From the IMG/VR virus record IMGVR_UViG_3300029319_000500, positions 1-24,290 of that record: DNA of 24,290 bases. One strand, 5' to 3'. The notes beneath the pieces were generated by a model, which was not told the DNA's origin, made no database searches, and saw nothing but the letters and a program-made list of their open reading frames with translations. Position 1 is the first letter of the stretch. Every line of letters starts with the position of its first letter. This document shows, piece after piece, positions 3,210 to 20,177 of the stretch. This stretch comes from a virus. Both the position numbers and the translations under genes were made by a program.

Positions 3210-4965
3210 TAGGTTGTCCTCCTTGTAATAATAAAGATCTTATATCTGGTGTAGGACCTTGTGGTACAGGTGGTCCTTGTTGTGCCTGTGTTAATTGATC
3301 AAGTATTGCTTGTTCATCTTCAGGTGTCTCTTCTTCAGCAGTATAAAATTTATCTAGTATAGATGACATATTACTTGGATTTTTTCTTATTTGTACTAAT
3401 GCCATAGTGGCTTTAGGATCACCTTGTGTAGCTTGTACTTTTAATGTTTCAAACAAAACATCTTCGGCCTCATCTTTTGTAATTCTATTATTTATCTTTT
3501 GTAAATTTTCTAGACCATCCATGTTTTCTTGCAATGTCTCCCTGTCAATAATACCTGCTTGTAATAATTGTAGGCCTGATACAATTTTAGTTGGTTCATC
3601 AAATCCGGCCATAACACCATATACTCTACGAGTATCGTACTGACCTGCTATATCTGTAGATGGTACATATTGTTCTGAAAAAGCTGCTCCGTTAGCAAAA
3701 CCACTTAATGGTTTCTTTTTATCTTTATTTAATATTTCATCCATCTCTAATCTTTTTTGATCAATTTCTTCTAATGCAGTTTTTAGTGATAGTTGATATT
3801 CTCTTACATTTAAATCAACTGATGACATAAGTTCTTGTAGACCTCTACCAGTAACAAAAGAGTTTGGTGATTGTGCGTCATCAGTAACAGGATAACTAGC
3901 ACCTAATCTTAATTGTCTCTCTAATCTATCTATTTGTTGAAACATTTGATAAGGTAAGTTGTTTGTTGGTTTTACAACTTGGCTACCAGGAGATAGATAG
4001 TTTATTGCAAATCTACCTCTTTTATAATTACCTGACTCTATTTCTCCTACTATGTTTGTTTCTGTAAACACAGCATCTTCCATAGCTATAATTGATAAAA
4101 CATTTATCTTTGCCATAGCAGACATAAGGCCTAACACATGATCGTATTGTCCTTGTAGTCTGTCAAAACTAAATCTTTTAGCAATTACAAATCTTGGTCC
4201 TGTCTTTAATGGATTAGGTGTAAAGTCTAATATCTGACTTGTAGATGGTAAGTATACATAAGTACCCTCTTCGTCATAATATTCTATTAGCTCTTCACCA
4301 TCAGCAGTGTCATTCTCCCATGACCTTGACAATGCATCTTTATACAAACCTTGTTGCCAACCACCACCATAATTATTTGTACCTTGTTCGTATTCTATGT
4401 TTGCATTAGGATATAATTTTTTAATTAATCCTGACGGTACAATTCTTACTAATGCTAATTCTGTAGGTGTTTGATCAGGTCCATAGTAACCAGGAAAGCA
4501 ATCGTATGGATCACGTAGTTCTGCATGTGGATACATATTGCCAAACTGATCTTGTTTGTTTCTTATTATCCATACACAAAAACCATAACCAGGTAGCCAT
4601 CTAGCTGCTTGTGGCATTTGCATTTCTATTCTGCTTTTCTTATCGTACGAATGTACTATACGTTCTATCTTTTCTGATTTTAATTTTGCACGTTCAGAAT
4701 CTTTATTGTTATATGGATCAACTTTTAAGTCAGGCACTCTACCTAGTTTTTGTGCTAGGTGTTCTAATCCAGACTCGATCATATTAGGTATAGGTAAATC
4801 TTCGTTGTAATTTTCAGAGTTAGAACCTAGTAATGCTGATACACCTTGTGAACCACCATTAATAATTTTTCTTATTCTTGTTCTGTAATCCCAATGACCA
4901 GTATGTTCGTGTAACCCACGTAAATCGTCTACCTTGTGTGCTAGTTGACTAGCGTTTAATGGCAT
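3202..4965 (-). CDS. Portal protein
   Basis: This 587-aa protein is the expected size for a phage portal and lies immediately downstream of the large terminase gene, joined by a TAATG overlap. The portal forms the dodecameric ring at one capsid vertex, docks the terminase and lets DNA in and out. The sequence is mixed alpha/beta in its first 330 residues. A long acidic, Gln-rich helical C-terminus follows (around 470-587), typical of portal clip and tail-interface regions, ending in a Pro/Gln-rich tail. No signal peptide or membrane segment is seen. The assignment rests on size, gene order and overall character, not on a catalytic motif. Confidence 0.78.
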   Translation of the reverse strand: MPLNASQLAHKVDDLRGLHEHTGHWDYRTRIRKIINGGSQGVSALLGSNSENYNEDLPIPNMIESGLEHLAQKLGRVPDLKVDPYNNKDSERAKLKSEKIERIVHSYDKKSRIEMQMPQAARWLPGYGFCVWIIRNKQDQFGNMYPHAELRDPYDCFPGYYGPDQTPTELALVRIVPSGLIKKLYPNANIEYEQGTNNYGGGWQQGLYKDALSRSWENDTADGEELIEYYDEEGTYVYLPSTSQILDFTPNPLKTGPRFVIAKRFSFDRLQGQYDHVLGLMSAMAKINVLSIIAMEDAVFTETNIVGEIESGNYKRGRFAINYLSPGSQVVKPTNNLPYQMFQQIDRLERQLRLGASYPVTDDAQSPNSFVTGRGLQELMSSVDLNVREYQLSLKTALEEIDQKRLEMDEILNKDKKKPLSGFANGAAFSEQYVPSTDIAGQYDTRRVYGVMAGFDEPTKIVSGLQLLQAGIIDRETLQENMDGLENLQKINNRITKDEAEDVLFETLKVQATQGDPKATMALVQIRKNPSNMSSILDKFYTAEEETPEDEQAILDQLTQAQQGPPVPQGPTPDIRSLLLQGGQPNV

Positions 4966-6884
4966 TATCTATCCCACATTCTTTCGTCGTATGTACTTAA
5001 CTTATAATTGCTATAAGATGGATTATAGTCGTTGTCTACTTCTGATAGCATTAATTTAACGGTCTGGCGTACCCTTTTCATAGGAAACCAACTTGCCATA
5101 ACTAAGTCAGTTTTTGAATTTACAGACTTAGAATTTGTGCCACTAGCACTACTAAAATAAATTAATTGTTGTCTAAGTACATTTACTTTACGTTGTGTTT
5201 GTGGATTACCCCATGGTAAATTTATTTTTTGTTGTTCATACATAGGCACCATAGCTGTTACACCAAATACAGGATCCCATTTGTTTTTATATGTCTGATG
5301 GCCCTCTATCCTTACACCGTTTACACCTGCCCAGTTTTTTATTTCTTTATCTTGTCCTATAGCTTTTTGGAATCCGTTTTCTTCTACAATCCAATGCGAT
5401 AAAAAATATTGCTCATGCCATTCTTGCATAACTTTTAATGCTTTAGATATACCACCACCTAAGTCATTACGTAAATCTACTAACCATAACTGTCCAGTTT
5501 TTTGATTGTATGCCCACAATACTGCTGCTTGGTATCCTGTACTTGCAGGATCTAAACCTGCAATTAATGCAGTATGTGGTGGTACATCACCAAGTATTCT
5601 AGACCTGTCTAAACAAGAATCTATCATCTCTGCACCAAACAATTCCATACCTGCAGGTACAGCTTTGTTAAGATACACCATCTCAAATATAGCTCTACCA
5701 CCTGTTGTTTCTGCTGCTGCTAATTGTTCCATAAGCCATTTGTGTGATCGTTTACCTTTCCATAACATGTGTTCGTCTTGGTCATTTGACTCTTGGTCTA
5801 ATGGTATTTCTAAATCATGCGCTCTCTCTACTATTGTTTCCCAAGCATCATTGTTTAACAATGCATTGTACAAATCATCAGGATGCTGTCTAGAACCAAT
5901 AACAACCATACCTGTATGTTCTTCTTTTCTAGACTGTAATGTTGTTGTCCACCAGTTTTTTGTATTTTCTCTTGCACTTGGTTGCACTGTACTACCATGA
6001 TCTTCTATGTCGTCAGATATAATTAAGTCTGCATCTCTTGACAAAATTTTACCGCCCTTACCTACAGCTACCAACGTAGGTGATTTTATACCAGACACAG
6101 TTCTTGTAGCTACAGTAAATTGACTTGTACTCCAGGACTTGCCAGATTTATTCATAGGCCTAAACCCCTCGTATGTTGCATAGTCCTGTATAAGTTGTTC
6201 GTTGTTTTCTAGGTGGTCGAGTACAGAACCCACCGCGTTTTTTGCTATGTCCTCGTTACCGCCTACCCACATTATTCTCATGTTTGGATTTTTACATATC
6301 ATGTATACACAAAAGTGTGTAAGCAAGTCTGTTTTGCCATGACGTGGCGGAGACAACACCATTAATCTTTTACCATTCTTAATAGTTTCTAATATTGCAT
6401 CTATCCATCTTTTTTGGAACTCTGGTGTCTCGTACGGTACGTTCTGCTCTGTCAAAAAATATTTGTCCCTAAACTCTACAAAGTCATCGAGTGCTGCTTG
6501 TGCCTCCCCATTTTTTTGTAAGGACTCGTGATTGACTCGCAGTGCCTCGTCCTTTAGATATGCAGACAGAGATCTTGTAACAGTTGGTAAAGAACAACCT
6601 AGTATGTCAGCAACTTCTTGTTTAGTCTTTGTACCTTTTAATAAGTCGTCAAAAAAATTTTTTTTATCCATTATGGCGTAGTAGTTGCCTCTACGTTTCT
6701 GTACGTTTGTGTCTACAATCTTTTCTACCTGGTATGTATCTGTCGCTTTGTTAGCCCTGTATGCTCTTTTCTTAATTCTGTTTGCACATTTGTCAGAACA
6801 ATACTTTCTACGACCTGTCGGTAAAACGTGAGTACAGTCGTTGGCTAGGCAAAACTTGTTTTTTTCTTGTTTTGTTTTAGTCAT
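4965..6884 (-). CDS. Terminase large subunit with N-terminal zinc-finger and HTH extension
   Basis: This 639-aa DNA-packaging motor has ATPase and nuclease domains. The Walker A motif is SPPRHGKT (178-185) and Walker B is DLIISDDIED (286-295). The RNase H-like nuclease begins at GLDPASTG (443-450, D445) with further acids near E501-E502. The N-terminus is unusual: a four-Cys zinc site (C12, C17, C29, C33, with YCSDKC) is followed by a helix-turn-helix around 86-110 (KQEVADILGCSLPTVTRSL). These could supply the DNA recognition normally given by a separate small subunit, and none is seen nearby. The start has no SD; a TGGTAAACT box lies seven bases upstream, so a leaderless transcript is possible. 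Confidence 0.93.
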   Translation of the reverse strand: MTKTKQEKNKFCLANDCTHVLPTGRRKYCSDKCANRIKKRAYRANKATDTYQVEKIVDTNVQKRRGNYYAIMDKKNFFDDLLKGTKTKQEVADILGCSLPTVTRSLSAYLKDEALRVNHESLQKNGEAQAALDDFVEFRDKYFLTEQNVPYETPEFQKRWIDAILETIKNGKRLMVLSPPRHGKTDLLTHFCVYMICKNPNMRIMWVGGNEDIAKNAVGSVLDHLENNEQLIQDYATYEGFRPMNKSGKSWSTSQFTVATRTVSGIKSPTLVAVGKGGKILSRDADLIISDDIEDHGSTVQPSARENTKNWWTTTLQSRKEEHTGMVVIGSRQHPDDLYNALLNNDAWETIVERAHDLEIPLDQESNDQDEHMLWKGKRSHKWLMEQLAAAETTGGRAIFEMVYLNKAVPAGMELFGAEMIDSCLDRSRILGDVPPHTALIAGLDPASTGYQAAVLWAYNQKTGQLWLVDLRNDLGGGISKALKVMQEWHEQYFLSHWIVEENGFQKAIGQDKEIKNWAGVNGVRIEGHQTYKNKWDPVFGVTAMVPMYEQQKINLPWGNPQTQRKVNVLRQQLIYFSSASGTNSKSVNSKTDLVMASWFPMKRVRQTVKLMLSEVDNDYNPSYSNYKLSTYDERMWDR

Positions 6885-7229: not shown

Positions 7230-7320
7230 GGGGATGATTGGTAACTAAAGCTAACGATCAACTAAAGATTGCCCTTGTACACAGTAGCTTTTTGACCAGG
7301 TTCGACTCCTGGCATCCCCA
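7230..7320 (+). ncRNA. tRNA-like RNA with tmRNA-like arm
   Basis: GGGGATG (7230-7236) pairs perfectly with CATCCCC (7313-7319), followed by discriminator A7320; CCA is not encoded. The T arm is perfect: CCAGG, loop TTCGACT, CCTGG (7296-7312). The remaining 59 nt do not make a standard cloverleaf. AAAGCTA (7247-7253) pairs with TAGCTTT (7285-7291). Inside it CGATC-(7 nt)-GATTG forms a hairpin whose loop has CUA in the anticodon position but A instead of U33. The D region (ATTGGTAACT) has no clear D stem. This is the layout of the tRNA-like domain of tmRNA, but at 91 nt there is no room for a normal tag. The opening GGGGATGATTGG also resembles tmRNA 5' ends. A degenerate long-variable-arm tRNA is the alternative. 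Confidence 0.65.
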
Positions 7321-7556
7321 CTACATATAGTGTATATATAGCAAAAACCTAGTTACCACCTATATTTTTGGAGATACATATATATTTACGCGACGTCCAG
7401 ATTTAACTATGTAGGTCTGTTGTGTAATGTCTAGAAATTGCAGGAATATGCACAGCTTTGATCTAAACTTATGCGCGTGTCTACTGCTAATAGGTTAATG
7501 CGCGCACGACCGCCCATAATACCCCTACATTAATTTCCTACAAGATACCCACCATA
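7321..7556. other. Non-coding stretch after the tRNA-like RNA
   Basis: No convincing gene or SD is seen here. It holds an AT-rich imperfect palindrome just after the RNA (7321-7340), TAGTTACCA (7350-7358), which is complementary to TGGTAACTA inside the RNA (7239-7247), two ATGCGCG direct repeats (near 7470 and 7498), and the weak copy of the two-part repeat. No clear plus-strand terminator was found, so the RNA's 3' end is probably made by processing. Confidence 0.4.
7460..7510 (+). repeat. Two-part GATC...GCGCACGAC element, copy 1 (weak)
   Basis: GATC at 7460 is followed 42 bases later by GCGCACGAC (7502-7510), which lacks the final ACA of the full motif. It lies in non-coding DNA between the tRNA-like RNA and the next terminator. 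It is the least conserved of six plus-strand copies. Confidence 0.45.
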
Positions 7557-7585
7557 TAAAAAAGAAGAGGAGACCAACGGCCTCC
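7557..7585 (-). terminator. Intrinsic terminator of the 9129-7632 operon
   Basis: On the minus strand GGAGGCC-GTT-GGTCTCC forms a tight 7-bp hairpin (one G-U), followed by CTCTTCTTTTTT. It lies about 47 nt past the stop of the last gene. It separates this operon from the RNA/promoter region to its left. Confidence 0.75.
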
Positions 7586-7631
7586 CCTCCTCTGTACGTA
7601 TCTAATAGAGAGAGTTATTTAGATACTTGTT

Positions 7632-8027
7632 TTATATATACCTGTAACGAAATCGACTTTGCCAATTATCATTGCATTCATCTCCTAGACTGCCGAACAT
7701 TTCATATAATGTCTGGAATCCCATGTCCATGTTGCCGAATGAACGATATATCGTCCCGCCTAGTTTATCGTTGAGACTAGCTCCAATAACTTTTGCAATA
7801 TTGTAAGTTATATCAAAAAGCCGGCCAGTCTTTAAATCAACATAATGGAACGTAAAGTAGTTTCCCCCGCTCCTTGTTGTTGGTTGTCTTTTAGCTATAT
7901 AGATCTCCGGTTTCGTCCCTCTATCTATTGCTAGTTTTTCCTGCGCTAGAAACATTTTAGTTAAATATTCCTTAGCTTTTTCAATATCGTCTTTTGTATA
8001 TTCTTTTACGTTTACTATGTTAGGCAT
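7632..8027 (-). CDS. Hypothetical early protein, 131 aa
   Basis: I chose ATG at 8027 (MPNIVNVKEYTKDD) because AGAGGAAT lies just upstream; an in-frame start 13 codons earlier lies inside the preceding gene and lacks a site. The first third is a basic helix (about 10-30), followed by mixed strands and a GN/GF-rich middle. The C-terminus is aromatic and basic (RFRYRYI). No family or catalytic motif is recognised. It is the last gene before the terminator. Confidence 0.75.
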   Translation of the reverse strand: MPNIVNVKEYTKDDIEKAKEYLTKMFLAQEKLAIDRGTKPEIYIAKRQPTTRSGGNYFTFHYVDLKTGRLFDITYNIAKVIGASLNDKLGGTIYRSFGNMDMGFQTLYEMFGSLGDECNDNWQSRFRYRYI

Positions 8028-8028
8028 C

Positions 8029-8166
8029 TTATTCCTCTTCTTTCTTGCAAATGTTTCCATCAGCATCTATATAATGACTCTCACCGCCTGCTCCGTATGT
8101 ATAATATGCCTCCTCCATAGGAGTCAAATTATTAACATCGTCATCAGTGTTCCATATTTTAGGCAT
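8029..8166 (-). CDS. Micro-protein, 45 aa, acidic
   Basis: ATG at 8166 follows TAAGGAGGAATTAA, a strong SD. The 45-aa product starts MPKIWNTDDDVNNL and ends CKKEEE. It contains GAGGESHYIDADGN, which resembles short phage proteins but matches no family I can name. The final GAAGAGGAATAA doubles as the SD for the next gene. It overlaps the upstream zinc-ribbon gene by eight bases. Confidence 0.7.
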   Translation of the reverse strand: MPKIWNTDDDVNNLTPMEEAYYTYGAGGESHYIDADGNICKKEEE

Positions 8167-8293
8167 TTAATTCCTCCTTATATTCTGGACATGTACGACA
8201 GTAAAAACTATTTTCATCTGTCTGTAATGTCTCACCTATTGCTAATTCTCTTTTACACCAGTAACAAAAAAACTTTAGCACAACCTTAGTCAT
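8159..8293 (-). CDS. Zinc-ribbon micro-protein, 44 aa
   Basis: The ATG at 8293 overlaps the previous gene's stop (ATGA). The 44-aa product has two CxxC pairs, CYWC near the start and CRTC near residue 32, about 20 residues apart. This is a classic treble-clef or zinc-ribbon spacing. It ends EEL-NA, and its last codons encode the SD of the next gene. DNA, RNA or protein binding is possible; the role is unknown. Confidence 0.72.
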   Translation of the reverse strand: MTKVVLKFFCYWCKRELAIGETLQTDENSFYCRTCPEYKEELNA

Positions 8294-8442
8294 CTTCTTA
8301 CTGCTTTATTGTATCCGGCATTTGTACAGGCTCCGCATACTTGATACTTTGTAAAAGCTATCATTAAATCGTTATCGTCTCCGCATTCAAGACAAATAAG
8401 ATTTTTTGTAATACCGTTTACAGTATATTTATTATTGGCCAC
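8290..8442 (-). CDS. Zinc-ribbon micro-protein, 50 aa, GTG start
   Basis: GTG at 8442 lies six bases after CAGGAGG, which is encoded inside the end of the upstream gene. The 50-aa product has CLEC (20-23) and CGAC (38-41), and ends AVRR. The pairing of two CxxC knuckles 14 residues apart indicates zinc binding. Together with the next gene it makes a tandem pair of zinc ribbons linked by an ATGA overlap. Confidence 0.7.
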   Translation of the reverse strand: MANNKYTVNGITKNLICLECGDDNDLMIAFTKYQVCGACTNAGYNKAVRR

Positions 8443-8947
8443 GGTATGCCTCCTGCATCTCTGCCACTGTATAGGCTTTACAGTTATTATTAATGGAGTG
8501 ATCCAGAATTAAGTTAATTAGATTTCTTGATTCTTTAAGCGTTCGACATTCCCCCCAGTGAGTAACCGGCTCAATGGTTGGATTATCTTTTCTTATAACC
8601 GGAGTTAATAACGTATATCGATAAACTTTTTCATAATCTTTGTATGAAAATATTGTTTCATCTCCGTTAATCATTCTAAAATAACTTTTATCATTCCCGA
8701 TATCTTGTAAATAGACATTACGTAAAATAAATAATCTTAGATATGCTTTATTAAACATTAACCAAGGCTTATTCTCTACGCTATCAATTAGGTCTATATC
8801 TTTTAAATCTAAATTAAAAGCTAGACCAATATCAAAAAGTTTCCCTTCATTATAAATATTGTTATGAGGACTAAACCATCTATTATTTAGACGCTTTAAC
8901 AACTCTTTGTATTTCTTTTGTCTACTTAGTGCCATAAACTGTAACAT
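8432..8947 (-). CDS. Hypothetical early protein, 171 aa
   Basis: This starts at a TAATG overlap with the stop of the preceding gene. The 171-aa protein is rich in Leu, Asn, Lys and Tyr and mixed in predicted structure. It begins MLQFMALSRQKKYKELLKRL (a basic amphipathic helix) and ends in a helical segment (VAEMQEAYRGQ). There is no signal peptide, no metal-binding motif and no recognised family. Its final codons provide the SD for the GTG-started zinc gene. Confidence 0.75.
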   Translation of the reverse strand: MLQFMALSRQKKYKELLKRLNNRWFSPHNNIYNEGKLFDIGLAFNLDLKDIDLIDSVENKPWLMFNKAYLRLFILRNVYLQDIGNDKSYFRMINGDETIFSYKDYEKVYRYTLLTPVIRKDNPTIEPVTHWGECRTLKESRNLINLILDHSINNNCKAYTVAEMQEAYRGQ

Positions 8948-9129
8948 TATTCCAGTCCCAGTTCATTAATGCGGTCCCTTATTGCTAAGAGTCCGGCCCT
9001 ATTGGCAGTTCCTCGGCCCATTAGAGAATGACTAATAACCATATTGGCGCCAATCAATGCGCCTAATCTATCAATGGCTTGCCCTGTTTCCTCTAATTGG
9101 CGAGCGTGTTCTGCTATGTTGTATTCCAC
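8947..9129 (-). CDS. Small helical early protein, first gene of operon, GTG start
   Basis: GTG at 9129 (MEYNIAEHARQLEETGQAID) has AAAGGAGGTACAAA upstream, an excellent SD. The 60-aa product is almost entirely helical (AIDRLGALIGANMV...). It heads the operon that runs to the terminator at 7557. Its SD (GGAGGTACA) is one of only three of this form in the window and is complementary to the loop of the small RNA at 15220-15296. Confidence 0.72.
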   Translation of the reverse strand: MEYNIAEHARQLEETGQAIDRLGALIGANMVISHSLMGRGTANRAGLLAIRDRINELGLE

Positions 9130-9218
9130 TTTGTACCTCCTTTATTGAAATAAACATAATTTAATTTTACCTAAATAAATAAAGAAATAAACCTTTATAT
9201 AAAAAAATTTCTTTATTG

Positions 9219-9270
9219 GATCATAAGTTTTAAAGCGAACTCATTTCGGGACTTATTAGCGCACGACACA
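9219..9270 (+). repeat. Two-part GATC...GCGCACGACACA element, copy 2
   Basis: TGGATCAT (9217-9224) is followed after 34 bases by a perfect GCGCACGACACA (9259-9270). Copy 3 has the same 8-mer, the same 34-base gap and the same 12-mer. It lies between two minus-strand operons, next to a terminator. No plus-strand gene follows. Confidence 0.75.
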
Positions 9271-9297
9271 CAAAAGCCGGCCAATCGGGAGGCCGGC
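9271..9297 (-). terminator. Intrinsic terminator of the 10592-9327 operon
   Basis: GCCGGCC (9276-9282) and GGCCGGC (9291-9297) form a perfect GC-rich stem around an 8-nt loop. Read on the minus strand it is followed by TTTTG. It lies about 30 nt beyond the stop of the last gene. The U-run is short but the stem is strong. Confidence 0.65.
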
Positions 9298-9326
9298 CAT
9301 GTGCATGCAACTTCAGCTTTACAGGG

Positions 9327-9539
9327 CTAAGTATTACTCTCCGTTGCATCATAGTTAGCTATCTCATACGCTATCATTGCTAATTGTTGTGGTGATTTTT
9401 GTACTGCATCCGTCAAAATCTTACTACTAACAATTAAATTCAAAGCAAACATCAAATCGAATTGTCCTGATGGTAAATCTTTGGTAACTTTTAATATCTC
9501 TTTAGTTACTTTTTTAACAGGTAATTCAACTTTACTCAC
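9327..9539 (-). CDS. Hypothetical early protein, 70 aa, GTG start
   Basis: GTG at 9539 overlaps the end of the preceding gene, with AGAGGTT just upstream. The 70-aa product (MSKVELPVKKVTKEILKVTK) starts with a Lys/Val-rich segment and continues in helices (FDLMFALNLIVSSKILTDAV). It has no clear membrane span and no recognised family. It is the last gene before a strong hairpin. Confidence 0.7.
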   Translation of the reverse strand: MSKVELPVKKVTKEILKVTKDLPSGQFDLMFALNLIVSSKILTDAVQKSPQQLAMIAYEIANYDATESNT

Positions 9540-9843
9540 TGATAACCTCTAACATTTCTTTGATGACAGTATTTAAATTATCTCTAAGCTCTATCATCTG
9601 CGCCAAGTTAGCTAGCAATCTAGCTTTACCACTTGACTTATCATGTAACGGCGTCCAGTGTGTGAAATGCATATCAATAGAATCGCATTTTGTTATTGTA
9701 TTTTTGACAGAAAAAAATGTTTCAGTGTTGTCAGTAACTAATTTATTCTCCTCCACAAAATTGTTATACATATCGCACCATTCTTTATTGTCTTTAGCAA
9801 TCTCGCTTATATGGTCCATGTCTTTCTTGTACATGACTCTCAT
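9532..9843 (-). CDS. Hypothetical helical early protein, 103 aa
   Basis: ATG at 9843 follows AAGGAGACATT. The protein is charged, with a central HFTHWTPLHDKSSGKARLL segment and a C-terminal helix (LANLAQMIELRDNLNTVIKE), resembling a dimerisation coiled coil. The start overlaps the stop of the upstream coiled-coil gene. No family is recognised. Confidence 0.72.
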   Translation of the reverse strand: MRVMYKKDMDHISEIAKDNKEWCDMYNNFVEENKLVTDNTETFFSVKNTITKCDSIDMHFTHWTPLHDKSSGKARLLANLAQMIELRDNLNTVIKEMLEVISE

Positions 9844-10031
9844 AATGTCTCCTTAATTCTGTCTTGTGCATCTTTAACACTTTGCACTGTCTCTTTTATT
9901 TCCTTTATAGATGTAGTAACTACTCTATCTATCTCTTGTGCAGAACTTATACACATATCAATGTCATGTGATAATGTTTCTAAGTTGCTTGCTTGCATTT
10001 CTAATTTTTGTAATAGATCACTTAATTTCAT
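9840..10031 (-). CDS. Small coiled-coil protein, 63 aa
   Basis: AAGGAGGAG lies about nine bases before ATG at 10031. Nearly the whole 63-aa product follows a heptad-like pattern (LLQKLEMQASNLETLSHDI... VVTTSIKEIKETVQSVKDAQ), with no membrane segment. It overlaps both neighbours. It probably self-associates or pairs with the helical 103-aa product of the next gene; this is inferred from sequence character and adjacency. Confidence 0.7.
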   Translation of the reverse strand: MKLSDLLQKLEMQASNLETLSHDIDMCISSAQEIDRVVTTSIKEIKETVQSVKDAQDRIKETL

Positions 10032-10326
10032 AATCTAACTCCTCCTTATTTGTAACGAACACGACACCGACTGTCTCCTCAAACATTTCAACCGGTCTAT
10101 ATTCGGTAAATAATCCCCAAATAGTTGACCAGTCCCTAGTTGTACTTTTAATTCTGTACGATGGAACAACTATCTCTGCAAACTGGACGTCTGCATCGTA
10201 ACTATTTTTTATTACGTCTGTAATGTCAGCTCCAATCTTTTCGATAGCTTGTAACCACTCAACAGAGTTCTCCTCTTTATTATTTATGTCCACATAAGTA
10301 GTAAATTTAACTCTCACGTTTTCCAT
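10018..10326 (-). CDS. Hypothetical early protein, 102 aa
   Basis: The start overlaps the stop of the upstream cysteine-rich gene (TAATG), with AAAGGAGGG upstream. The 102-aa product is acidic and rich in Val, Thr and Glu, likely an alpha/beta domain (MENVRVKFTTYVDINNKEEN). No motif or family is recognised. It lies second in a five-gene minus operon. Confidence 0.72.
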   Translation of the reverse strand: MENVRVKFTTYVDINNKEENSVEWLQAIEKIGADITDVIKNSYDADVQFAEIVVPSYRIKSTTRDWSTIWGLFTEYRPVEMFEETVGVVFVTNKEELDYEIK

Positions 10327-10592
10327 TAGCCCTCCTTTATAGCTAGTAATAATTTTGTTCTATCAGGATTAAACAACGTGGAACCACAACCCGCACCAAA
10401 AGCAGGACTAAAGTCAGCATTGTTTTCTGGCATGCCATCTATAATCTCATCGTACTTCATGCAGAAATATTCTCCCGGATTGTCTCCGCCTAGATATTTA
10501 CATGCACGATTCGTGCTACTGGTTACCTCACCGAAATAACATGGCGATTGTTTACAACAAAAACCACTTCTAACGCATGGTGCAAATTCCAA
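10326..10592 (-). CDS. YkgJ-like cysteine cluster protein, TTG start, first gene of operon
   Basis: The frame is open further upstream, but AGGAGGTACATT places the start at TTG 10592, giving 88 aa. The cysteine pattern CVRSGFCCKQSPC, then C-KYL and YFC-MKYD, resembles the YkgJ/CxxxxxxCC family, proposed to bind zinc or an iron-sulphur cluster. A further CG pair lies near the C-terminus. The function in phages is unknown. Its SD contains GGAGGTACAT, a ten-base complement of the small RNA loop (15231-15240). It heads the operon ending at 9327 and faces the plus-strand operon across a 130-bp gap. Confidence 0.75.
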   Translation of the reverse strand: MEFAPCVRSGFCCKQSPCYFGEVTSSTNRACKYLGGDNPGEYFCMKYDEIIDGMPENNADFSPAFGAGCGSTLFNPDRTKLLLAIKEG

Positions 10593-10613
10593 AATGTACC
10601 TCCTATACATATA

Positions 10614-10622
10614 AAGATACCA
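10614..10622 (-). promoter_or_regulatory. Possible extended -10 for the 10592 operon
   Basis: TGGTATCTT on the minus strand would start RNA near 10607, just ahead of the SD of the YkgJ-like gene. It matches the TGG-TATACT style of the RNA promoters at five of six core positions or fewer, so confidence is moderate. Confidence 0.4.
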
Positions 10623-10660
10623 CAAATAAAAAAAAACAAAAGACTTTATTTATAATTATG

Positions 10661-10712
10661 GATCATGATATAGTGTTAATACATATTGCGTCTATATAAA
10701 GCGCACGACACA
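10661..10712 (+). repeat. Two-part GATC...GCGCACGACACA element, copy 3
   Basis: TGGATCAT (10659-10666), 34 bases, then GCGCACGACACA (10701-10712). TATATAA (10693-10699) lies immediately before the 12-mer and the SD of the plus-strand operon immediately after it. This copy could therefore be a promoter with its start inside the 12-mer. It shares the exact 8-mer, gap and 12-mer with copy 2. Confidence 0.75.
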
Positions 10713-10724
10713 AGGAGGTACAAA

Positions 10725-11120
10725 ATGTGGACAGAGGGATTCGGTATAACCGACCATAGAAATGGTTTATGGTTACGCAGTGGATGCATACCGCCAGAAC
10801 TAGATAATTGGTTTAATAAACAATACGAATATTCTGGATGGTATGACTCCGTACAATTAGTATCGTATAGCGGTAACATTAAATCATATTGTCGTATGGA
10901 CTACAAAGGATTCAAAGATTGGCTAGAAGAGTTTAGCCCAGAGATGAACTTTAGTTATGAGACAAGCAAGATGAATTACAACGAGGGATGGCCAGATAGC
11001 ATAGACAGTCCATTCTATACAAAACCTATCGGCACAATAATTAAGTACAACAATCCTGATTACAAGCCAAGAAAACAATTCAACAGATACATTGCATATA
11101 TATTTGAGATGCACTCATGA
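10725..11120 (+). CDS. Hypothetical protein, first gene of plus-strand operon
   Basis: ATG at 10725 (MWTEGFGITDHRNGLWLR) follows AAGGAGGTACAAA; the frame extends upstream without a ribosome site. The 131-aa product is rich in Trp, Tyr, Asn and Ser and looks globular, with no signal peptide or metal motif. No family is recognised. Its SD is one of three with GGAGGTACA. The stop overlaps the next gene (ATGA). It opens the only plus-strand operon in the window. Confidence 0.78.
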   Translation: MWTEGFGITDHRNGLWLRSGCIPPELDNWFNKQYEYSGWYDSVQLVSYSGNIKSYCRMDYKGFKDWLEEFSPEMNFSYETSKMNYNEGWPDSIDSPFYTKPIGTIIKYNNPDYKPRKQFNRYIAYIFEMHS

Positions 11121-11272
11121 TTGTTTGTTACTATTGCAGAGATGGACGTAGCTTTACACATGGAGATGTAAATATATCTAGTAACAACAATTACTATCAT
11201 CGAAGTTGTTATGACAACAACGTTAGACCTATACACGAACAATATAAAAGGAGAAACAATGGCAGTATTTAG
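11117..11272 (+). CDS. Zinc-binding micro-protein, 51 aa
   Basis: ATG at 11117 overlaps the previous stop. The 51-aa product begins MIVCYYCRDGRSF and has CYYC plus a later HRSC, a CxxC...HxxC zinc-knuckle pattern with about 21 residues between. It ends in a basic tail (EQYKRRNNGSI). Its 3' end carries the SD of the next gene, whose start it overlaps by 14 nt. Too short for usual gene-finding cut-offs. Confidence 0.65.
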   Translation: MIVCYYCRDGRSFTHGDVNISSNNNYYHRSCYDNNVRPIHEQYKRRNNGSI

Positions 11273-11417
11273 AGTAGTGATAGAAGTAAATGAACCTACA
11301 TTACAGGATGCACAGGACCATATACTAAGTCTTAGTGGTAGTGATTTAGTAGATGAAATTATAGAAGTTGAATATACCAGTGTTACAAAATTAGAAAAAT
11401 TAGTAAAGGAGGAATAA
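11259..11417 (+). CDS. Small hypothetical protein, 52 aa
   Basis: AAAGGAGAAACA precedes ATG at 11259 (MAVFRVVIEVNEPTLQDAQD). The 52-aa product looks like a small beta-alpha-beta fold: a strand (FRVVIEV), a helix, and a strand (IIEVEYT), ending VKEE. The last codons form the SD GGAGGAATAATG of the next gene. No family is recognised. Confidence 0.7.
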   Translation: MAVFRVVIEVNEPTLQDAQDHILSLSGSDLVDEIIEVEYTSVTKLEKLVKEE

Positions 11418-11599
11418 TGAAGTACAAAGTATATGGACAACAAAACATGGTTGTATGGGAGGATATAGTTAAGGCAGATAGCAAACAAGAGGCTATTGAG
11501 GTAGCTTATCGCATGAATTACAAAGGTGGTTTAGGTCTAAAGTATATGGATAACTTAGAGGCAAACACAATAACTTTTGAAATACAAGAGGAGGAATAA
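11417..11599 (+). CDS. Small hypothetical protein, 60 aa
   Basis: The TAATG overlap with the previous gene and its AAAGGAGGAATA SD fix the start. MKYKVYGQQNMVVWEDIVKA and the following ADSKQEAIEVAYRMN resemble a small strand-helix-strand fold, possibly related to the preceding gene. It ends QEEE through the next SD. Confidence 0.7.
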   Translation: MKYKVYGQQNMVVWEDIVKADSKQEAIEVAYRMNYKGGLGLKYMDNLEANTITFEIQEEE

Positions 11600-11709
11600 T
11601 GGATAGGATTACTTATTTAGAAAAAGCCAATGACATTTTATGGGAGTATGTAGGAGAACATGAGATTGTAGAAGTAACTAAATTATTAGAAAAGTTAGAG
11701 GAGGAATAA
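11599..11709 (+). CDS. Micro-protein, 36 aa, acidic helix
   Basis: ATG at 11599 overlaps the previous TAA and follows GAGGAGGAATA. The 36-aa product (MDRITYLEKANDILWEYVGE) is one or two acidic amphipathic helices ending LEKLEEE. The C-terminal Glu run is encoded by the next gene's SD. Support is the identical stop-SD-start cassette at both ends. Confidence 0.6.
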   Translation: MDRITYLEKANDILWEYVGEHEIVEVTKLLEKLEEE

Positions 11710-11837
11710 TGGATAAAGATAAGATAATAAAAAAGTTAGAAAATCAAATCCAAATGATGTGGTTTGGATTTGAGGAGGGAATTTCTGTTGATGAAATGAA
11801 TGCAAGAATATTTCCTGAATCATTTAAGGAGGAATAA
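11709..11837 (+). CDS. Micro-protein, 42 aa
   Basis: ATG at 11709 lies in the repeated GAGGAGGAATAATG cassette. The 42-aa product starts with a Lys-rich helix (MDKDKIIKKLENQIQMM), followed by WFGFEEGISVDEMN, and ends ESFKEE. No motif is recognised. The same cassette marks its end. Confidence 0.6.
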   Translation: MDKDKIIKKLENQIQMMWFGFEEGISVDEMNARIFPESFKEE

Positions 11838-11971
11838 TGTTGCAATTAGGAGACATAATAGAAATAGGAGATGATTTAGACGGTGCTACCTTATGTGATT
11901 GGTGCAACATGCATTTTAAAGGAGACGGAAATATGACACGATGCAACACATGTTGGGATGACACAAGATGA
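11837..11971 (+). CDS. Zinc-ribbon micro-protein, 44 aa
   Basis: ATG at 11837 follows AAGGAGGAATA. The 44-aa product has CDWC and CNTC, about 13 residues apart, a compact zinc ribbon, after an acidic N-terminus (MLQLGDIIEIGDDLDGATL). It ends DDTR at an ATGA overlap with the next zinc gene. Confidence 0.66.
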   Translation: MLQLGDIIEIGDDLDGATLCDWCNMHFKGDGNMTRCNTCWDDTR

Positions 11972-12114
11972 TTTGTAAAATGTGTGGCAACTGGATACCT
12001 CCGGAGTTTGATTCATGTTATGTGTGCGGAGAATACAGGATCTATTTTTTTATACATAAATTGTTAAAGAAGATTAACGCACGACACAGAGAGGAGGTGA
12101 ATGATGGAAGATAA
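11968..12114 (+). CDS. Zinc-ribbon micro-protein, 48 aa, basic tail
   Basis: ATG at 11968 overlaps the previous stop. The 48-aa product has CKMC (3-6) and CYVC (17-20), followed by a hydrophobic and basic stretch (RIYFFIHKLLKKINARHREE). Copy 4 of the two-part repeat lies within its coding sequence; the 12-mer encodes ARHR. It overlaps the next gene by 11 nt and encodes its SD. Confidence 0.62.
   Translation: MICKMCGNWIPPEFDSCYVCGEYRIYFFIHKLLKKINARHREEVNDGR
12039..12088 (+). repeat. Two-part GATC...CGCACGACACA element, copy 4
   Basis: GGATC (12038-12042) is followed 38 bases later by ACGCACGACACA (12077-12088), one change from the 12-mer. It lies in the end of a zinc micro-gene and directly before the SD of the next plus-strand gene, as copy 3 does. 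Confidence 0.65.
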
Positions 12115-12295
12115 AAATATTATTAAGATAGCAGAAGTTACATTAACAGTTTCTTGGGAGGGAGACTGGGACCAACCATGGACTCCTGCTGACGAGTTGT
12201 GGCAGTATATAGGTGATAGAGATTATAATTTAGCAGAGGTATCACTGTTAAAAACTGAAGTAAAAATGAAACAACTTGTAGACAAAGACGAATAA
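12104..12295 (+). CDS. Small hypothetical protein, 63 aa, last plus-strand gene
   Basis: AGGAGG lies six bases before the second of two adjacent ATGs, so I start at 12104 (MEDKNIIKIAEVTLTVSWEG). The 63-aa product is acidic, with a Trp-rich strand segment (VSWEGDWDQPWTPADELW). No family is recognised. The gene ends back-to-back with a minus-strand gene without any gap. No terminator is seen at this junction, so readthrough antisense RNA is possible. Confidence 0.7.
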   Translation: MEDKNIIKIAEVTLTVSWEGDWDQPWTPADELWQYIGDRDYNLAEVSLLKTEVKMKQLVDKDE

Positions 12296-12505
12296 TTATA
12301 CTTTATAATTTACTGGCCTCTTATGTGGTGCGCGTGGTTTAATATTATCATCGCTCTCACATGGGAGGCCATCTACATGGTGCATGTATTTTCTACTACA
12401 AACTAAACAAGGCTCATGCCTGTTGTAATTCCAATCAACTTTAGCCATCAAGTATGTTAATTGTAAAGCGATCTTTCTTGCTACTAAATCTACATCTTTA
12501 CTCAT
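12296..12505 (-). CDS. Zinc-finger-like small protein, 69 aa
   Basis: ATG at 12505 gives 69 aa; a GTG four codons upstream is possible. No SD is visible at either. The 12-mer of repeat copy 5 sits where an SD should be. The product has CLVC followed by HH and GLPC, a possible C2-H-C metal site, then a basic Pro-rich tail (KPRAPHKRPVNYKV). It is last in the DNA-metabolism operon and may be read by coupling from the nuclease gene 16 nt upstream. Confidence 0.6.
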   Translation of the reverse strand: MSKDVDLVARKIALQLTYLMAKVDWNYNRHEPCLVCSRKYMHHVDGLPCESDDNIKPRAPHKRPVNYKV

Positions 12506-12518
12506 AGCGCACGACACA
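12470..12518 (+). repeat. Two-part GATC...GCGCACGACACA element, copy 5
   Basis: GATC at 12470 is followed 37 bases later by a perfect GCGCACGACACA (12507-12518). It points along the plus strand although both flanking genes are on the minus strand. It spans the start codon of the 69-aa gene. Confidence 0.65.
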
Positions 12519-12520
12519 GT

Positions 12521-12907
12521 CTATGGATTGTTAGGCACTGTACTCCAGAATGGTTCATCATAAAATTTATTTCCTTTTCTTGCATCTATAATCTCACAAA
12601 ATGTTTCTAATGGTAAACATACAATTATAGGTACGCCATCAGGTTGTCTTTTTTGTTTGTCAGTTTTGACAAGTCTTTTCCAAATCAATGCAGTAAAATC
12701 TGATTTACTTTTCTTCATTGCCTTGGCTAGTTCTCTTGTTACATTTAAAGATTGTCTAGCTTTACACTCTACAAAAAAGTCTATGCCGTTCCATTTAAAA
12801 ACGACATCACCTCTGTCGTACTTGCCTCCCTCCGGGAGTCTCTCTCCACCTAATAATTTTGCTACAAAGGTTTCTAACCTCGTACCCTGTTGCTTTGGTT
12901 TGTTCAT
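12521..12907 (-). CDS. PD-(D/E)XK nuclease, Holliday-junction-resolvase-like
   Basis: This 128-aa protein fits the archaeal-Hjc/phage resolvase-like restriction-endonuclease fold. An early Glu (E12, in RLETFVAKLLGG) is followed by D34 in RGDVVF, then the catalytic E47-C-K49 (FFVECKAR), giving the E...D...ExK arrangement. A basic helix (AKAMKKSKSD) and a strand (FTALIWKRLV) complete the core. It likely resolves branched DNA during phage replication or packaging, working with the annealing protein in the same operon. The exact substrate is not shown by sequence. The start follows GGAAAG. The small size is normal for this group. Confidence 0.75.
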   Translation of the reverse strand: MNKPKQQGTRLETFVAKLLGGERLPEGGKYDRGDVVFKWNGIDFFVECKARQSLNVTRELAKAMKKSKSDFTALIWKRLVKTDKQKRQPDGVPIIVCLPLETFCEIIDARKGNKFYDEPFWSTVPNNP

Positions 12908-12933
12908 TCATATCTTTCCGATTGCCCTCGGTT

Positions 12934-13410
12934 TTAAAAGTCATAGTAACTTATGTCATTCTTGTACGTAGTTACTTTGTACTCATCTTTTATCTTCATT
13001 CTTTTTTTTCTCAATGACTTACTACTATTTACTATTGTCGCAAATGCGTTAAGCCAATTTTGCATTGTCTCTTTGTAGCATCTGCCATAATCTAATTGTA
13101 TATTTTGTTTTGTATAATTAAATACATACAAGTCATTAATATCTAAAAGTATTTGTAAATCACCGTAACCTTTTGTGTTTACATAACCCATCGATATGCC
13201 ACCATGATGTCCACAATTATCAACTGGTATATCATGGCCTTGTTCTATCAACATGTAAGTTACTCCTGCATTAAAAGTATCTTTTGGTAAAAAAGAAATT
13301 CTATCACCAGGATCAATCTCCTTTATAGATACTGCACTTTCTAATACAGCGCTCGACACAAGCATTTCGTAAACTAACTTGCCACCTTTAGACTCTATAA
13401 TATCTTTCAT
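12934..13410 (-). CDS. Hypothetical protein, 158 aa, in recombination operon
   Basis: ATG at 13410 overlaps the preceding stop, with GGAGAG upstream. The 158-aa product has a Cys/His-containing centre (DNCGHHGGISMGYVNTKGYGDLQILLDI) that could bind metal or be catalytic. A basic segment near the C-terminus (SLRKKRMKIKDEYK) precedes a YYDF end. I recognise no family. The operon context suggests DNA metabolism. Copy 6 of the two-part repeat lies in its first codons. Confidence 0.7.
   Translation of the reverse strand: MKDIIESKGGKLVYEMLVSSAVLESAVSIKEIDPGDRISFLPKDTFNAGVTYMLIEQGHDIPVDNCGHHGGISMGYVNTKGYGDLQILLDINDLYVFNYTKQNIQLDYGRCYKETMQNWLNAFATIVNSSKSLRKKRMKIKDEYKVTTYKNDISYYDF
13311..13360 (+). 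repeat. Two-part GATC...GCGCtCGACACA element, copy 6
   Basis: GGATC (13310-13314) is followed 38 bases later by GCGCTCGACACA (13349-13360), one change from the 12-mer, with TAATAC just before it. It lies on the non-coding strand of the 158-aa gene, so in this copy the element overlaps codons of a minus-strand gene. Confidence 0.55.
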
Positions 13411-13685
13411 AATGTCTCTCCAATTAAATCATCAAACGTTTGCATGTAATATTGTTTCTCTTCATGTTGTGCGTTTCTGTATTTATATACATTAGCTCTA
13501 TGACTATGGTTCTCCATATCACATGGTTCACCCTCTATAACAATACGTCCATCTTTTTTCATTGATGCTTTGTTCATCTCACTAATTCTATTTCTAGCAG
13601 AGTAACCAGTTTCTTGTATAATAGATTCAATGCAATGCCATCTTCCATCAGACAATATAGATTTTATAATATCTACGTAGCTCAT
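13407..13685 (-). CDS. Winged-helix-like protein, 92 aa
   Basis: The start overlaps the upstream stop (TAATG). The 92-aa product has the order helix (YVDIIKSILSDG), WHCIESIIQETG, a recognition-helix candidate (SARNRISEMNKASM), then a wing (KKDGRIVIEGEPC). This is the pattern of a small winged-helix DNA-binding domain. A His-rich segment (ENHSHRANVYKY) follows. It may be a replication accessory or regulator; the target is unknown. Confidence 0.7.
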   Translation of the reverse strand: MSYVDIIKSILSDGRWHCIESIIQETGYSARNRISEMNKASMKKDGRIVIEGEPCDMENHSHRANVYKYRNAQHEEKQYYMQTFDDLIGETL

Positions 13686-14897: not shown

Positions 14898-15152
14898 TTA
14901 TTCCTCCTCGCCTGTGTCTAATCGCATGGGATCGTCGTCATACGATTTCACAATCTTATCGTTCATTTCATAATGCACCCAAATATTTGTAGTGGATCTC
15001 ACATTATATTGTAAAGTTAAATCTTTTATACTTTTCTCTTTATGATTCCATATCATATCAAATATTTTTTCGCACTCTTCTATACTGTCTGCAGTTACAA
15101 TGTAATCTCTTACACTTGTGTCTGTAAACATAATTGATACTTGTTTATTCAT
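14898..15152 (-). CDS. Hypothetical protein, 84 aa, first gene of recombination operon
   Basis: ATG at 15152 has no SD but lies exactly six bases after TATTAT, so it may be leaderless. The 84-aa product is an acidic alpha/beta protein (MNKQVSIMFTDTSVRDYIVT, then a helix SIEECEKIFDMIW). It ends TGEEE, where the Glu codons form the SD of the annealing gene. No family is recognised. Confidence 0.72.
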   Translation of the reverse strand: MNKQVSIMFTDTSVRDYIVTADSIEECEKIFDMIWNHKEKSIKDLTLQYNVRSTTNIWVHYEMNDKIVKSYDDDPMRLDTGEEE

Positions 15153-17976: not shown

Positions 17977-18159
17977 CTATTTCCTAAACCTTATAGTCAA
18001 TAGCCACACAACTAATGTTATTACTGTAGCTAATCCTGTAATTTGTTGCGCACTTCCCGTTAATGTAAGCGTTGCAATAATTAAACCGACAAGTGTCCAT
18101 GACAAATTTAATGTTTCTTTTATTGCCTCAACAATATAATCAATTATCTTTTTTATCAT
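17977..18159 (-). CDS. Small two-span membrane protein, 60 aa
   Basis: ATG at 18159 follows AAGGAGAGT and overlaps the previous stop (ATGA). The 60-aa product has an amphipathic N-terminal helix (MIKKIIDYIVEAIKETL) and two hydrophobic spans (LVGLIIATLTLTG and ITGLATVITLVVWLLTI), ending RFRK. Size and layout fit a holin, antiholin or similar membrane protein. With the 95-aa holin candidate nearby, one may antagonise the other. Confidence 0.65.
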   Translation of the reverse strand: MIKKIIDYIVEAIKETLNLSWTLVGLIIATLTLTGSAQQITGLATVITLVVWLLTIRFRK

Positions 18160-20177
18160 ACTCTCCTTGTCAACAGCATAGATGCCAAGCTAGCAATCCT
18201 TGTAATGATCACTGGTATAACAACTTCTTGTGCTTTTTCACGTTGATCTTGTGTCATATCTTGTCCTATATCTGATATTACCACATCAGACAAATCGACA
18301 TCTACTAAAGTACCTATTGGATTAGATATAAATTCTTCTATCTGGACCTCAACAACAACATCAGCAAGTGTATAATCCTCTACGTCTGCATTTTCTACTG
18401 CACGTTCTACATAAACTTCAACCGCATCTGCAATAACTTCATCTTCTTTTATAGCCTCTGCAATAATTTCTACATCTTCTGTTTGTACCTGTAATACTTC
18501 TGCTACTACTTCAACTTGTTCTTCTGTCAAATTATCTATCTCTTCTATGGCCTCTTCTACAACTGCTTGTACTATCTCTTGTACTTCCTCTGTAGCTTGT
18601 TCTAGATTTTGCACACCTATATCATTAACTTCTTCTAAGACTTCGACTACTTCTTCTGTATCTAATTCTTCTACATACTGATCTATGACTTCTTCTATTT
18701 CTTCATCAGATAAATCATCTTCTATATCTATCTCTATAACTTCTTCTAACTCTTCAGTCTCTTTGACATCTTCTTCTTGAATCTCTTCCGTTGTTTTGGT
18801 GTCATCTCCTGGTATATTTTCGTCCAACTCATCTTCTTCTATCTCTTCAAACTCTGTGTCCCAATCATCTATATCTATTTCTATTTCTTCTATGTCCTCT
18901 ATAATTACAATTTCTACTTCTTCAAAGTCTTGTAAAAATTCTTCGACTTCAATAATCGTCTCAACAAAATTCTCCAACTCCTCTTCATCTTCAAACGTAA
19001 AAATTTCAACTGTCTCTTTAATTTCAAGAATCTTAGTTTCTCTTTCAAGTTCTTCTTCAGTAAGTTCAATCTCCATAATGTCAGGTACATCAACATCATC
19101 GTAAAACTCTTCTCCGACTTCTCCCATGTCTTGTTCCTCAATGATCTCGATGTCATAATTTTCTAAATCTCCTCGTTCTATTTGTTCGTCAGTTAATTCT
19201 ACACCATATATCTCATAATTCTTTTTTCTTTCATTGTCTCGTTCTACTGTTCCGTCATCAATCTCATGTTGCTCATACTCTGCCTCTTCACCATTATCAA
19301 GTATGACAACAAATATTTCAGGCTCTGGTTCTGGTTCAGGCTCTGGTTCTGGTTCTGGTTCAGGCTCTGGTTCTGGTTCTGGTTCAGGCTCTGGAGGTGG
19401 AGGTAATGTAGTAGTAGTAGTAGTAGTAGTAGTTGGTTGTATATATTTAAATGATATGTCATCAAGCAAAGACCAGTCATTAATTGTTATTGTAAAACTT
19501 TCTATAAATGTTTCTAATGTGTCGTATATATTGTAAACAACATCTTCAAACATGTTTTCTATATCTGTATTATCTTGGCCCTCAATCACATTTACTTGTG
19601 TTGTTTCATCAGTGTGTGTATATGTAACTGTGCCATCATTGTTTAATGCACCAATTCTAAAACCAACTTCATATATATCTATATCTAGCTCTTCTTCTTC
19701 TACTGTCGTGGTTTCAGGTAGTGTAAATGTGTAATCATTACTATCGTTGCCATGTTGAAAGTAATGTAAATTCATGTGAAAGTCTGTCATACCACAACAA
19801 GACCAATTACCGTTACTATGATTACTGTCTATCTGTATATTGTTTTCAACCTCATTACCTTGACTATCTAATTCATCTTCAGGTAATTCTATATCTGTTG
19901 ATTGTTCCCATTCAGGTATTGTCGTAGTAGTTGTAGTGGTCGTAGTTGTAGTAGTGTTATCTTCTGGAACAGTTGTAGTCGTAGTAGTTTCTTCTGGTCC
20001 ATCAAATGTTTCTATTTCTTCTACTTCACCAGGAATGGTAGTCGTAGTGGTTGTAGTAGTAGTTGTAGTAGTTTGTTCTTCGTTAGCAAATACAGGTATA
20101 GGTACGAGTAGTACAGTAACTAATAGTATTCTAAAGTAATTGCTTATCCTCCTGAACAGCACCCTTGTCCACAACAA
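18156..20177 (-). CDS. Large exported Thr/Pro/Glu-rich acidic protein
   Basis: This protein is up to 673 aa. The start is either TTG 20177 or, more likely, GTG 20165, as both lead into a signal peptide: basic (FRRISNYFR), then ILLVTVLLVPIPVF, cleaved near A31. Poly-Thr linkers follow (about 36-47, 64-69, 75-86, 249-257). A beta-rich domain (about 115-247) contains WSCCGMTDFHMNLHYFQHG. An EP repeat (262-285) leads to about 300 residues dominated by Glu, Asp, Ile and Val, largely helical and extremely acidic. The end is ITRIASLASMLLTRRV, possibly a membrane anchor. Export by a phage protein suggests action outside the membrane: a cell-surface stalk, superinfection barrier or lysis factor. Confidence 0.75.
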   Translation of the reverse strand: MLWTRVLFRRISNYFRILLVTVLLVPIPVFANEEQTTTTTTTTTTTTIPGEVEEIETFDGPEETTTTTTVPEDNTTTTTTTTTTTTIPEWEQSTDIELPEDELDSQGNEVENNIQIDSNHSNGNWSCCGMTDFHMNLHYFQHGNDSNDYTFTLPETTTVEEEELDIDIYEVGFRIGALNNDGTVTYTHTDETTQVNVIEGQDNTDIENMFEDVVYNIYDTLETFIESFTITINDWSLLDDISFKYIQPTTTTTTTTTLPPPPEPEPEPEPEPEPEPEPEPEPEPEPEIFVVILDNGEEAEYEQHEIDDGTVERDNERKKNYEIYGVELTDEQIERGDLENYDIEIIEEQDMGEVGEEFYDDVDVPDIMEIELTEEELERETKILEIKETVEIFTFEDEEELENFVETIIEVEEFLQDFEEVEIVIIEDIEEIEIDIDDWDTEFEEIEEDELDENIPGDDTKTTEEIQEEDVKETEELEEVIEIDIEDDLSDEEIEEVIDQYVEELDTEEVVEVLEEVNDIGVQNLEQATEEVQEIVQAVVEEAIEEIDNLTEEQVEVVAEVLQVQTEDVEIIAEAIKEDEVIADAVEVYVERAVENADVEDYTLADVVVEVQIEEFISNPIGTLVDVDLSDVVISDIGQDMTQDQREKAQEVVIPVIITRIASLASMLLTRRV
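19318..19433. repeat. Low-complexity EP and poly-Thr coding repeat
   Basis: Plus-strand text GGCTCTGGTTCTGGTTCA repeats, followed by GGTGGAGGT and a run of GTA triplets. On the coding strand this is Glu-Pro repeats, Pro run and poly-Thr. Similar GTAGTWGT triplet runs lie near 19918-19960 and 20036-20075. Such tracts are prone to slippage and length change. Confidence 0.85.

Follow-up and report, generated by a model that had tools for sequence, protein, structure and literature searches.

What function could be served by a short GC-rich word that recurs on one strand of an uncultured phage genome, each time some 40 nucleotides (nt) downstream of the tetramer GATC? The question arises from a 24-kb virus record (IMG/VR record IMGVR_UViG_3300029319_000500, positions 1 to 24,290; the whole 24,290-nt stretch is referred to here as the window), in which a sequence-only reading had described six such two-part copies between 7460 and 13,360. 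The pair of GATC and box is a real control element and its reader is probably a phage protein. As a directional phage control element that recurs at dispersed sites, in a lineage with no close relative in culture, it gives a concrete starting point for tests of how early genes are controlled, or how genome polarity is set, in phages that have not been cultured.

The box has the consensus [AGT]CGCACGACACA, with GATC 38-43 nt upstream at every coordinate named by the earlier reading. Exact copies of the 12-mer GCGCACGACACA lie at 9259, 10701 and 12507, the copies at 12077 and 13349 each differ from it by one base, and a nine-base form, GCGCACGAC, lies at 7502; these positions are all as first listed, the GATC assigned to each copy was found in its place, and the sequence TGGATCAT with a 34-nt gap, said to be common to copies 2 and 3, reads as claimed. 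The assertion that such a GC-rich word should not recur by chance was borne out when GC-rich 12-mers at no more than one mismatch were counted in 40 dinucleotide shuffles, which gave a maximum of three copies for any of them against five in the window. The CGCAC of the six copies is preceded by GATC at 43, 41, 41, 39, 38, and 39 nt, and a GATC 38-43 nt upstream is found for just 0.9% of random positions between 7.1 and 13.9 kb. Single 12-mers with two or three mismatches do arise randomly, but a product of chance or base composition is scarcely credible here, being rejected by the shuffle, control-GATC, codon, and cross-lineage tests.

The comparison with relatives was made on metagenomic contigs throughout. 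A related terminase is encoded at 45 loci in IMG/VR, a count that overstates independence because many of these loci come from shared contigs. Box and GATC are present in more than 20 related contigs, with order and strand kept, always antisense to the terminase and on a constant strand regardless of gene direction. The paired spacing is thus retained among relatives, at 38-44 nt, across a spacer that has diverged, and a comparison of 16 site-by-lineage representatives shows strong information only at the GATC and eleven box positions, the spacer being freely diverged. Every strong copy in two 41-kb relatives (G002 and G013) lies inside one region of 5-6 kb, and a check for strong copies scattered over the rest of both genomes found none. 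The short form of element 1 (GATC..CGCACGACCGC at an offset of 43) is also seen in G013 at 17465 and in L022. At element 5, the box of relatives is repeated in tandem two or three times with a period of 25-27 bp beside a single GATC (L023 3421 and 3448; L156 6957 and 6983; L025 929, 954, and ~979), the L024/L025 lineage having a triple box with a 25-bp period. Relatives at ~50% identity in the large terminase (TerL) showed no detectable element of the same type, and most early genes were not detected in them either.

Each GATC of the window was scored for a box at +37 to +44, with 113 GATCs from other regions or from the other strand serving as controls, and all nine GATCs of the 7.3-13.6 kb domain outscored all 113. 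Three further, weakened boxes follow the GATCs at 7902, 8500, and 10016 by 40 to 42 nt, which brings the window to nine pairs (Table 1); the element at 7902 scored above all 113 window controls and all 247 controls in G002, and the score of the weakest, at 8500, was reached by none of the 113 and by two of the 247. Six of the seven domain GATCs are paired in G013, as are seven or eight of nine in L025 up to 13.5 kb of its reverse strand (8306 being marginal, with a score reached by 2/73 controls). Nearly all GATCs in the available part of the domain are likewise paired in thirteen further contigs, the unpaired exceptions being L012/L011 475, L011 722, L022 581 and 1535, and L145 5575. Unpaired GATC is purged from the domain, with none in the window against 14.4 expected (P = 5e-7), one against 21.1 in G013, and one against 19.3 in L025 (P values for the three ranging from 5e-7 to 1.5e-8). 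It is the most depleted of the 256 tetramers in the domain of three lineages and ordinary in the remainder of the same records, although this ranking double-counts palindromes and inflates the z value of GATC about 1.4-fold, so that the observed/expected P values are preferred. To our knowledge, no earlier description exists of a tetramer that is cleared from a domain and retained there only in company with a box.

Restriction offers one account of the purge, in which hosts would restrict GATC, the first-entering domain would be cleared of it, and GATCs covered by a complex would be tolerated. The confinement of the depletion to the domain in three lineages is consistent with this, as is the count of zero GATC against 38-71 expected in those relatives at ~50% TerL identity that were counted. 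Phage T5 reportedly carries first-step-transfer DNA that lacks EcoRI sites, and the likeness is that one restriction-type tetramer is purged from one early segment; here, however, the tetramer is also retained, invariant, inside a two-part element. The invariant GATC at every strong box is left unexplained by restriction, no methylase or restriction gene was found, and we regard this account as improbable. As a separate observation, the GATC-free relatives comprise L035, L037, L042, L043, L045, L226-L233, and others (up to 71 GATCs expected), and CATG is absent from L042 and L045 and occurs once in L043; the missing words suggest restriction systems in the hosts of those relatives.

The nine window pairs are co-oriented, although only two belong to the plus-strand operon and the other seven are found within leftward genes or between them. 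The degenerate sites, which are partly lineage-specific, are oriented like the rest; orientation therefore tracks either the axis of the genome or its predominantly leftward transcription, and not individual local genes. This agrees with the earlier remark that all copies lie on the plus strand though genes run both ways, and hence are not simple gene-start signals. The called coding genes of the window and G013 run leftward, the short plus-strand operon excepted, and most elements sit at gene or operon junctions; those of L025 are all in intergenic gaps, except for the GATC end of element 5. In the lineages read, only a few bases separate the start of the element 2 box from the T-run of a leftward terminator; element 1 shows this adjacency in L011 and L025 but not in the window.

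The positions at gene starts bear on the proposal that the elements are plus-strand promoters of a phage-controlled class, with the GATC, near -42, acting as activator or upstream contact, the AT stretch as a weak -10, and the start inside the box, so that the two plus-strand transcription units would receive short leaders and antisense RNAs would be made at the other sites. A Shine-Dalgarno sequence directly follows elements 3 and 4, element 3 sits where the promoter of the plus-strand operon must lie, the copies are uniformly oriented, and the seven nt before the box are 84% AT. This AT-rich stretch holds no consistent hexamer, and the -10-like box that the sequence-only reading had noticed did not hold up: a TAnnnT-type hexamer precedes 11 of 30 sites against a background of 22% (p = 0.04), at inconsistent offsets. 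A search for sigma-70 promoters, for which the -10 TAnnnT had to keep a constant distance while a -35 was optional, found no such arrangement, sigma-70-like sites were not in excess (35 against 38 expected from shuffles), and an ordinary sigma-70 promoter was rejected on both counts. Class II activator-dependent sigma-70 promoters have a short upstream contact ~40 bp from the start, which is similar to the distance to the presumed start here, but no consistent -10 is present and the conserved word would span the start. Moreover, no plus-strand gene lies downstream of four of the six strong sites or of the three degenerate ones, elements 1 and 2 run directly into hairpins, and the purge of unpaired GATC would be left unexplained, which makes plus-strand promoters of the phage-controlled class doubtful. 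Of the earlier interpretation, the non-random, polar, two-part element stands and the ordinary promoter with a -10 box does not. A leftward promoter was also rejected, the distance from GATC to the next minus-strand gene start being inconsistent and sometimes intragenic, and the idea of an ancestral RNA element on the minus strand was abandoned, given that plus-strand transcripts contain elements 3 and 4; no Rfam family matched the element at gathering score.

Polar sites for replication, recombination, or fork control were also considered, at which an enzyme of phage or host would load, nick, or stop at GATC given the orientation of the box, resulting in direction along the genome. In favour of such sites, orientation tracks the genome rather than the genes, and the elements persist where the genes between them are replaced. 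Relatives without the element, the GATC-free ones included, share terminase and/or annealing protein (~47-85% identical), exonuclease, and a holin-like gene, and have no detectable homologues of 8432-8947, 12296-12505, 12521-12907, 12934-13410, 13407-13685, and 14898-15152; the proteins not detected where the element is missing include the RusA-like nuclease and a small CxxC/HH protein. Set against these points, the 41-kb relative yielded no recognisable gene for an initiator, a polymerase, or a helicase, the elements are spread over 6 kb at spacings of 0.4-1.7 kb, unlike known phage origins, and strand skew does not shift at them beyond the effect of gene direction. Sites of this kind are judged unlikely.

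The box has also changed in concert between lineages. In L024/L025, with a terminase 82% identical, all copies at syntenic positions read CGCAC[CA]CGAC with GATC 43-44 nt upstream, and L012 and L011 have CACCCGACACA at element 2; pattern scans for the L012 and L025 box forms returned almost only chance matches, the exception being one more contig of the L024 lineage. Because all copies within a genome changed together, the simplest reading would be a diffusible factor that shifted with them, and the concerted change provides an easy route to the reader protein. Selection on the DNA itself is apparent at element 6, whose box and GATC are under DNA-level selection inside a gene, as judged from its codons: CTT GTG TCG [AT]GC is identical in eight genomes despite synonymous variation close by, even though GTG and TCG are little used here (34/309 Val and 9/254 Ser, respectively). 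At this site L025 still encodes LLSSN and has lost both box and GATC. The GATC of element 5 falls in different codons (AAG ATC GCT in the window, GTA GAT CTT in L025), with its distance to the box kept.

The sequences show the element itself, its polarity, its conservation as DNA, its concerted change, and a GATC purge limited to the domain; from these we infer a reader that is a protein, of phage origin, and with a role in transcription. The reading we prefer, tentatively and at somewhat less than an even chance, is that a regulator encoded by the phage binds this two-part site in one orientation and so controls transcription of the early region, in a manner that resembles the stoperators of mycobacteriophages without making the element one of them. 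The 11-base box would be bound by a factor from the phage that has evolved along with it, the GATC, strictly retained at a distance of some four helical turns, would be bound by the same or a second protein, and the dispersed operators or roadblocks would regulate transcription through the early or accessory region. Polar operators or roadblocks are preferred because of the single orientation, the box at the leftward terminator exit of element 2, and the co-evolving box; the fixed pairing across a diverged spacer, the junction positions, the concerted change, the DNA-level selection inside a gene, the constant strand even at degenerate sites, and a winged-helix-like protein found only with the element lend further support. 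This candidate reader is the 92-aa product of 13407-13685, for which a low-confidence model (pLDDT 59) predicts a small winged helix, with MarR-/ArsR-like structure matches at E > 0.1 (best Foldseek E 0.18).

Several points weigh against the operator reading. The proposed reader is a candidate only, with a weak winged-helix model, and its presumed recognition helix (SARNRISE) stayed the same in L024 while the box changed. Element 4 faces against the operon in which it lies, neither an integrase nor a repressor could be recognised among the genes, and a stoperator model leaves the GATC and its domain-wide purge unexplained. A search of the 45 G013 proteins against Pfam and PHROGs recognised no repressor, the Crp/helix-turn-helix (HTH) matches not being traced to a gene and no direct search with the L5 repressor being included, and a structure search with the 171-aa protein of 8432-8947 gave no match at E <= 0.001. 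TerL itself matches HTH_23, but it was rejected as the co-varying reader since L025 shows hardly any change in the TerL zinc finger and HTH. Separately, the N terminus of the window TerL (4965-6884, minus strand) includes a zinc finger and an HTH of its own (PF11706 and PF13384, each scoring below cut-off), and no separate small terminase was recognised.

Two known systems invite comparison. The stoperators of phage L5 are 13-mers present at more than 20 sites genome-wide, oriented with transcription and inactive when reversed (PMC9283540). Those of Cluster A phages (L5, TipsytheTRex) are likewise short, asymmetric, phage-specific, multi-copy sites, in or between genes, in one orientation and with lineage versions (PMC9283540; PMC6550527). 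The present element shares with them a recurrent asymmetric site of 12-16 bp, whereas its five to nine copies are limited to one 6-kb domain, and its single strand fits the dominant leftward genes but not the plus-strand operon. The GATC ~40 bp away and the purge of unpaired GATC are found only here; in addition, Cluster A repressors are of the HTH plus Stoperator-domain type, and no L5-type repressor was recognised here, no L5 query having been used. The SAS/ESAS repeats of Cluster K mycobacteriophages resemble the element in being asymmetric 13-bp sequences, mostly in one orientation in the non-structural half, about half of them with a second upstream part, but SAS elements contain AGGAG and lie 3-7 bp from start codons (PMC3203893). 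Here a start codon follows in the sense direction at only two of the six strong sites, and a Shine-Dalgarno sequence is missing from the box. The element has some but not all stoperator features, departs from SAS in its position and in the missing AGGAG, and is assigned to neither class.

A further reading would make GATC itself a signal in the early domain, with a GATC-reading activity (a methylase, a nuclease, or a tracking complex) acting there, for which the word is permitted only when licensed by the polar box 40 bp away, as a two-part code co-evolving with the phage; this joint claim is possible, though we rather doubt it.

Table 1. Coordinates of the GATC-box elements and accompanying genes in the window.
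Feature	Position	Strand	Details
Element 1	7460..7513	+	GATC 7460-7463; short box GCGCACGAC(CGC) 7502-7513; offset 43; flanked by terL and the 7632 gene
Degenerate element	7902..7954	+	GATC 7902-7905; CGCTAGAAACA 7944-7954; offset 42; within minus gene 7632-8027
Degenerate element, weakest	8500..8550	+	GATC 8500-8503; CGTTCGACATT 8540-8550; offset 40; within minus gene 8432-8947
Element 2	9219..9270	+	GATC 9219-9222; GCGCACGACACA 9259-9270; adjoins T-run end of minus-strand terminator hairpin 9275-9298
Degenerate element	10016..10068	+	GATC 10016-10019; AACACGACACC 10058-10068; offset 42; junction of minus genes 9840-10031 and 10018-10326
Element 3	10661..10712	+	GATC 10661-10664; GCGCACGACACA 10701-10712; divergent gap, then AGGAGG and ATG (10725) of first plus gene
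Element 4	12039..12088	+	GATC 12039-12042; ACGCACGACACA 12077-12088; plus operon, right before Shine-Dalgarno of next gene
Element 5	12470..12518	+	GATC 12470-12473 within minus gene 12296-12505; GCGCACGACACA 12507-12518 just upstream of that gene's ATG
Element 6	13311..13360	+	GATC 13311-13314; GCGCTCGACACA 13349-13360; within coding sequence of minus gene 12934-13410
Domain	7300..13560		each GATC element-paired; no unpaired GATC
Nuclease-like protein	12521..12907	-	PHROG 244, RusA-like resolvase
158-aa protein	12934..13410	-	hosts element 6
92-aa protein	13407..13685	-	small winged-helix type (low-confidence model); candidate box reader

With regard to the lineage and the remainder of the window, the genes include a gpA-type terminase, a portal, an annealing protein, and an exonuclease, to which a 41-kb relative adds an SU10-type capsid protein; the phages are uncultured and probably of marine origin. 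The nearest cultured TerL in the INPHARED phage set is ~26% identical, that set held no near-identical DNA match to the window, and a TerL search for a host in bacterial and archaeal genomes gave no match. The gene overlapping element 5 (12296-12505, minus strand) encodes a small protein with HEPCLVC..HH[VI]DGLPCE, a likeness to short HNH-type zinc proteins, and no Pfam match.

Upstream of element 1, the plus strand at 7230-7320 carries a tRNA-like RNA of 91-93 nt, with the acceptor GGGGATG/CATCCCC plus A and a T-arm with a TTCGA loop, present in TerL relatives at least 82% identical for which the upstream region is covered. Its long stem AAAGCTA/TAGCTTT becomes ATAGCTA/TAGCTAT in L024/L025, both sides having changed. 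ARAGORN gave no match and the Rfam tmRNA model scored 19 bits (gathering 47, E 5e-6); the RNA resembles a tmRNA reduced to its tRNA-like domain, with no message portion. Towards the far end of the window, a long acidic low-complexity protein with a Thr-run and Pro/Glu-type repeats is encoded at 18156-20177 (minus strand), followed at 20899-24200 (minus strand) by six consecutive reading frames of 169-213 aa, similar in size and look, which are possibly tandem paralogous tail or appendage proteins.

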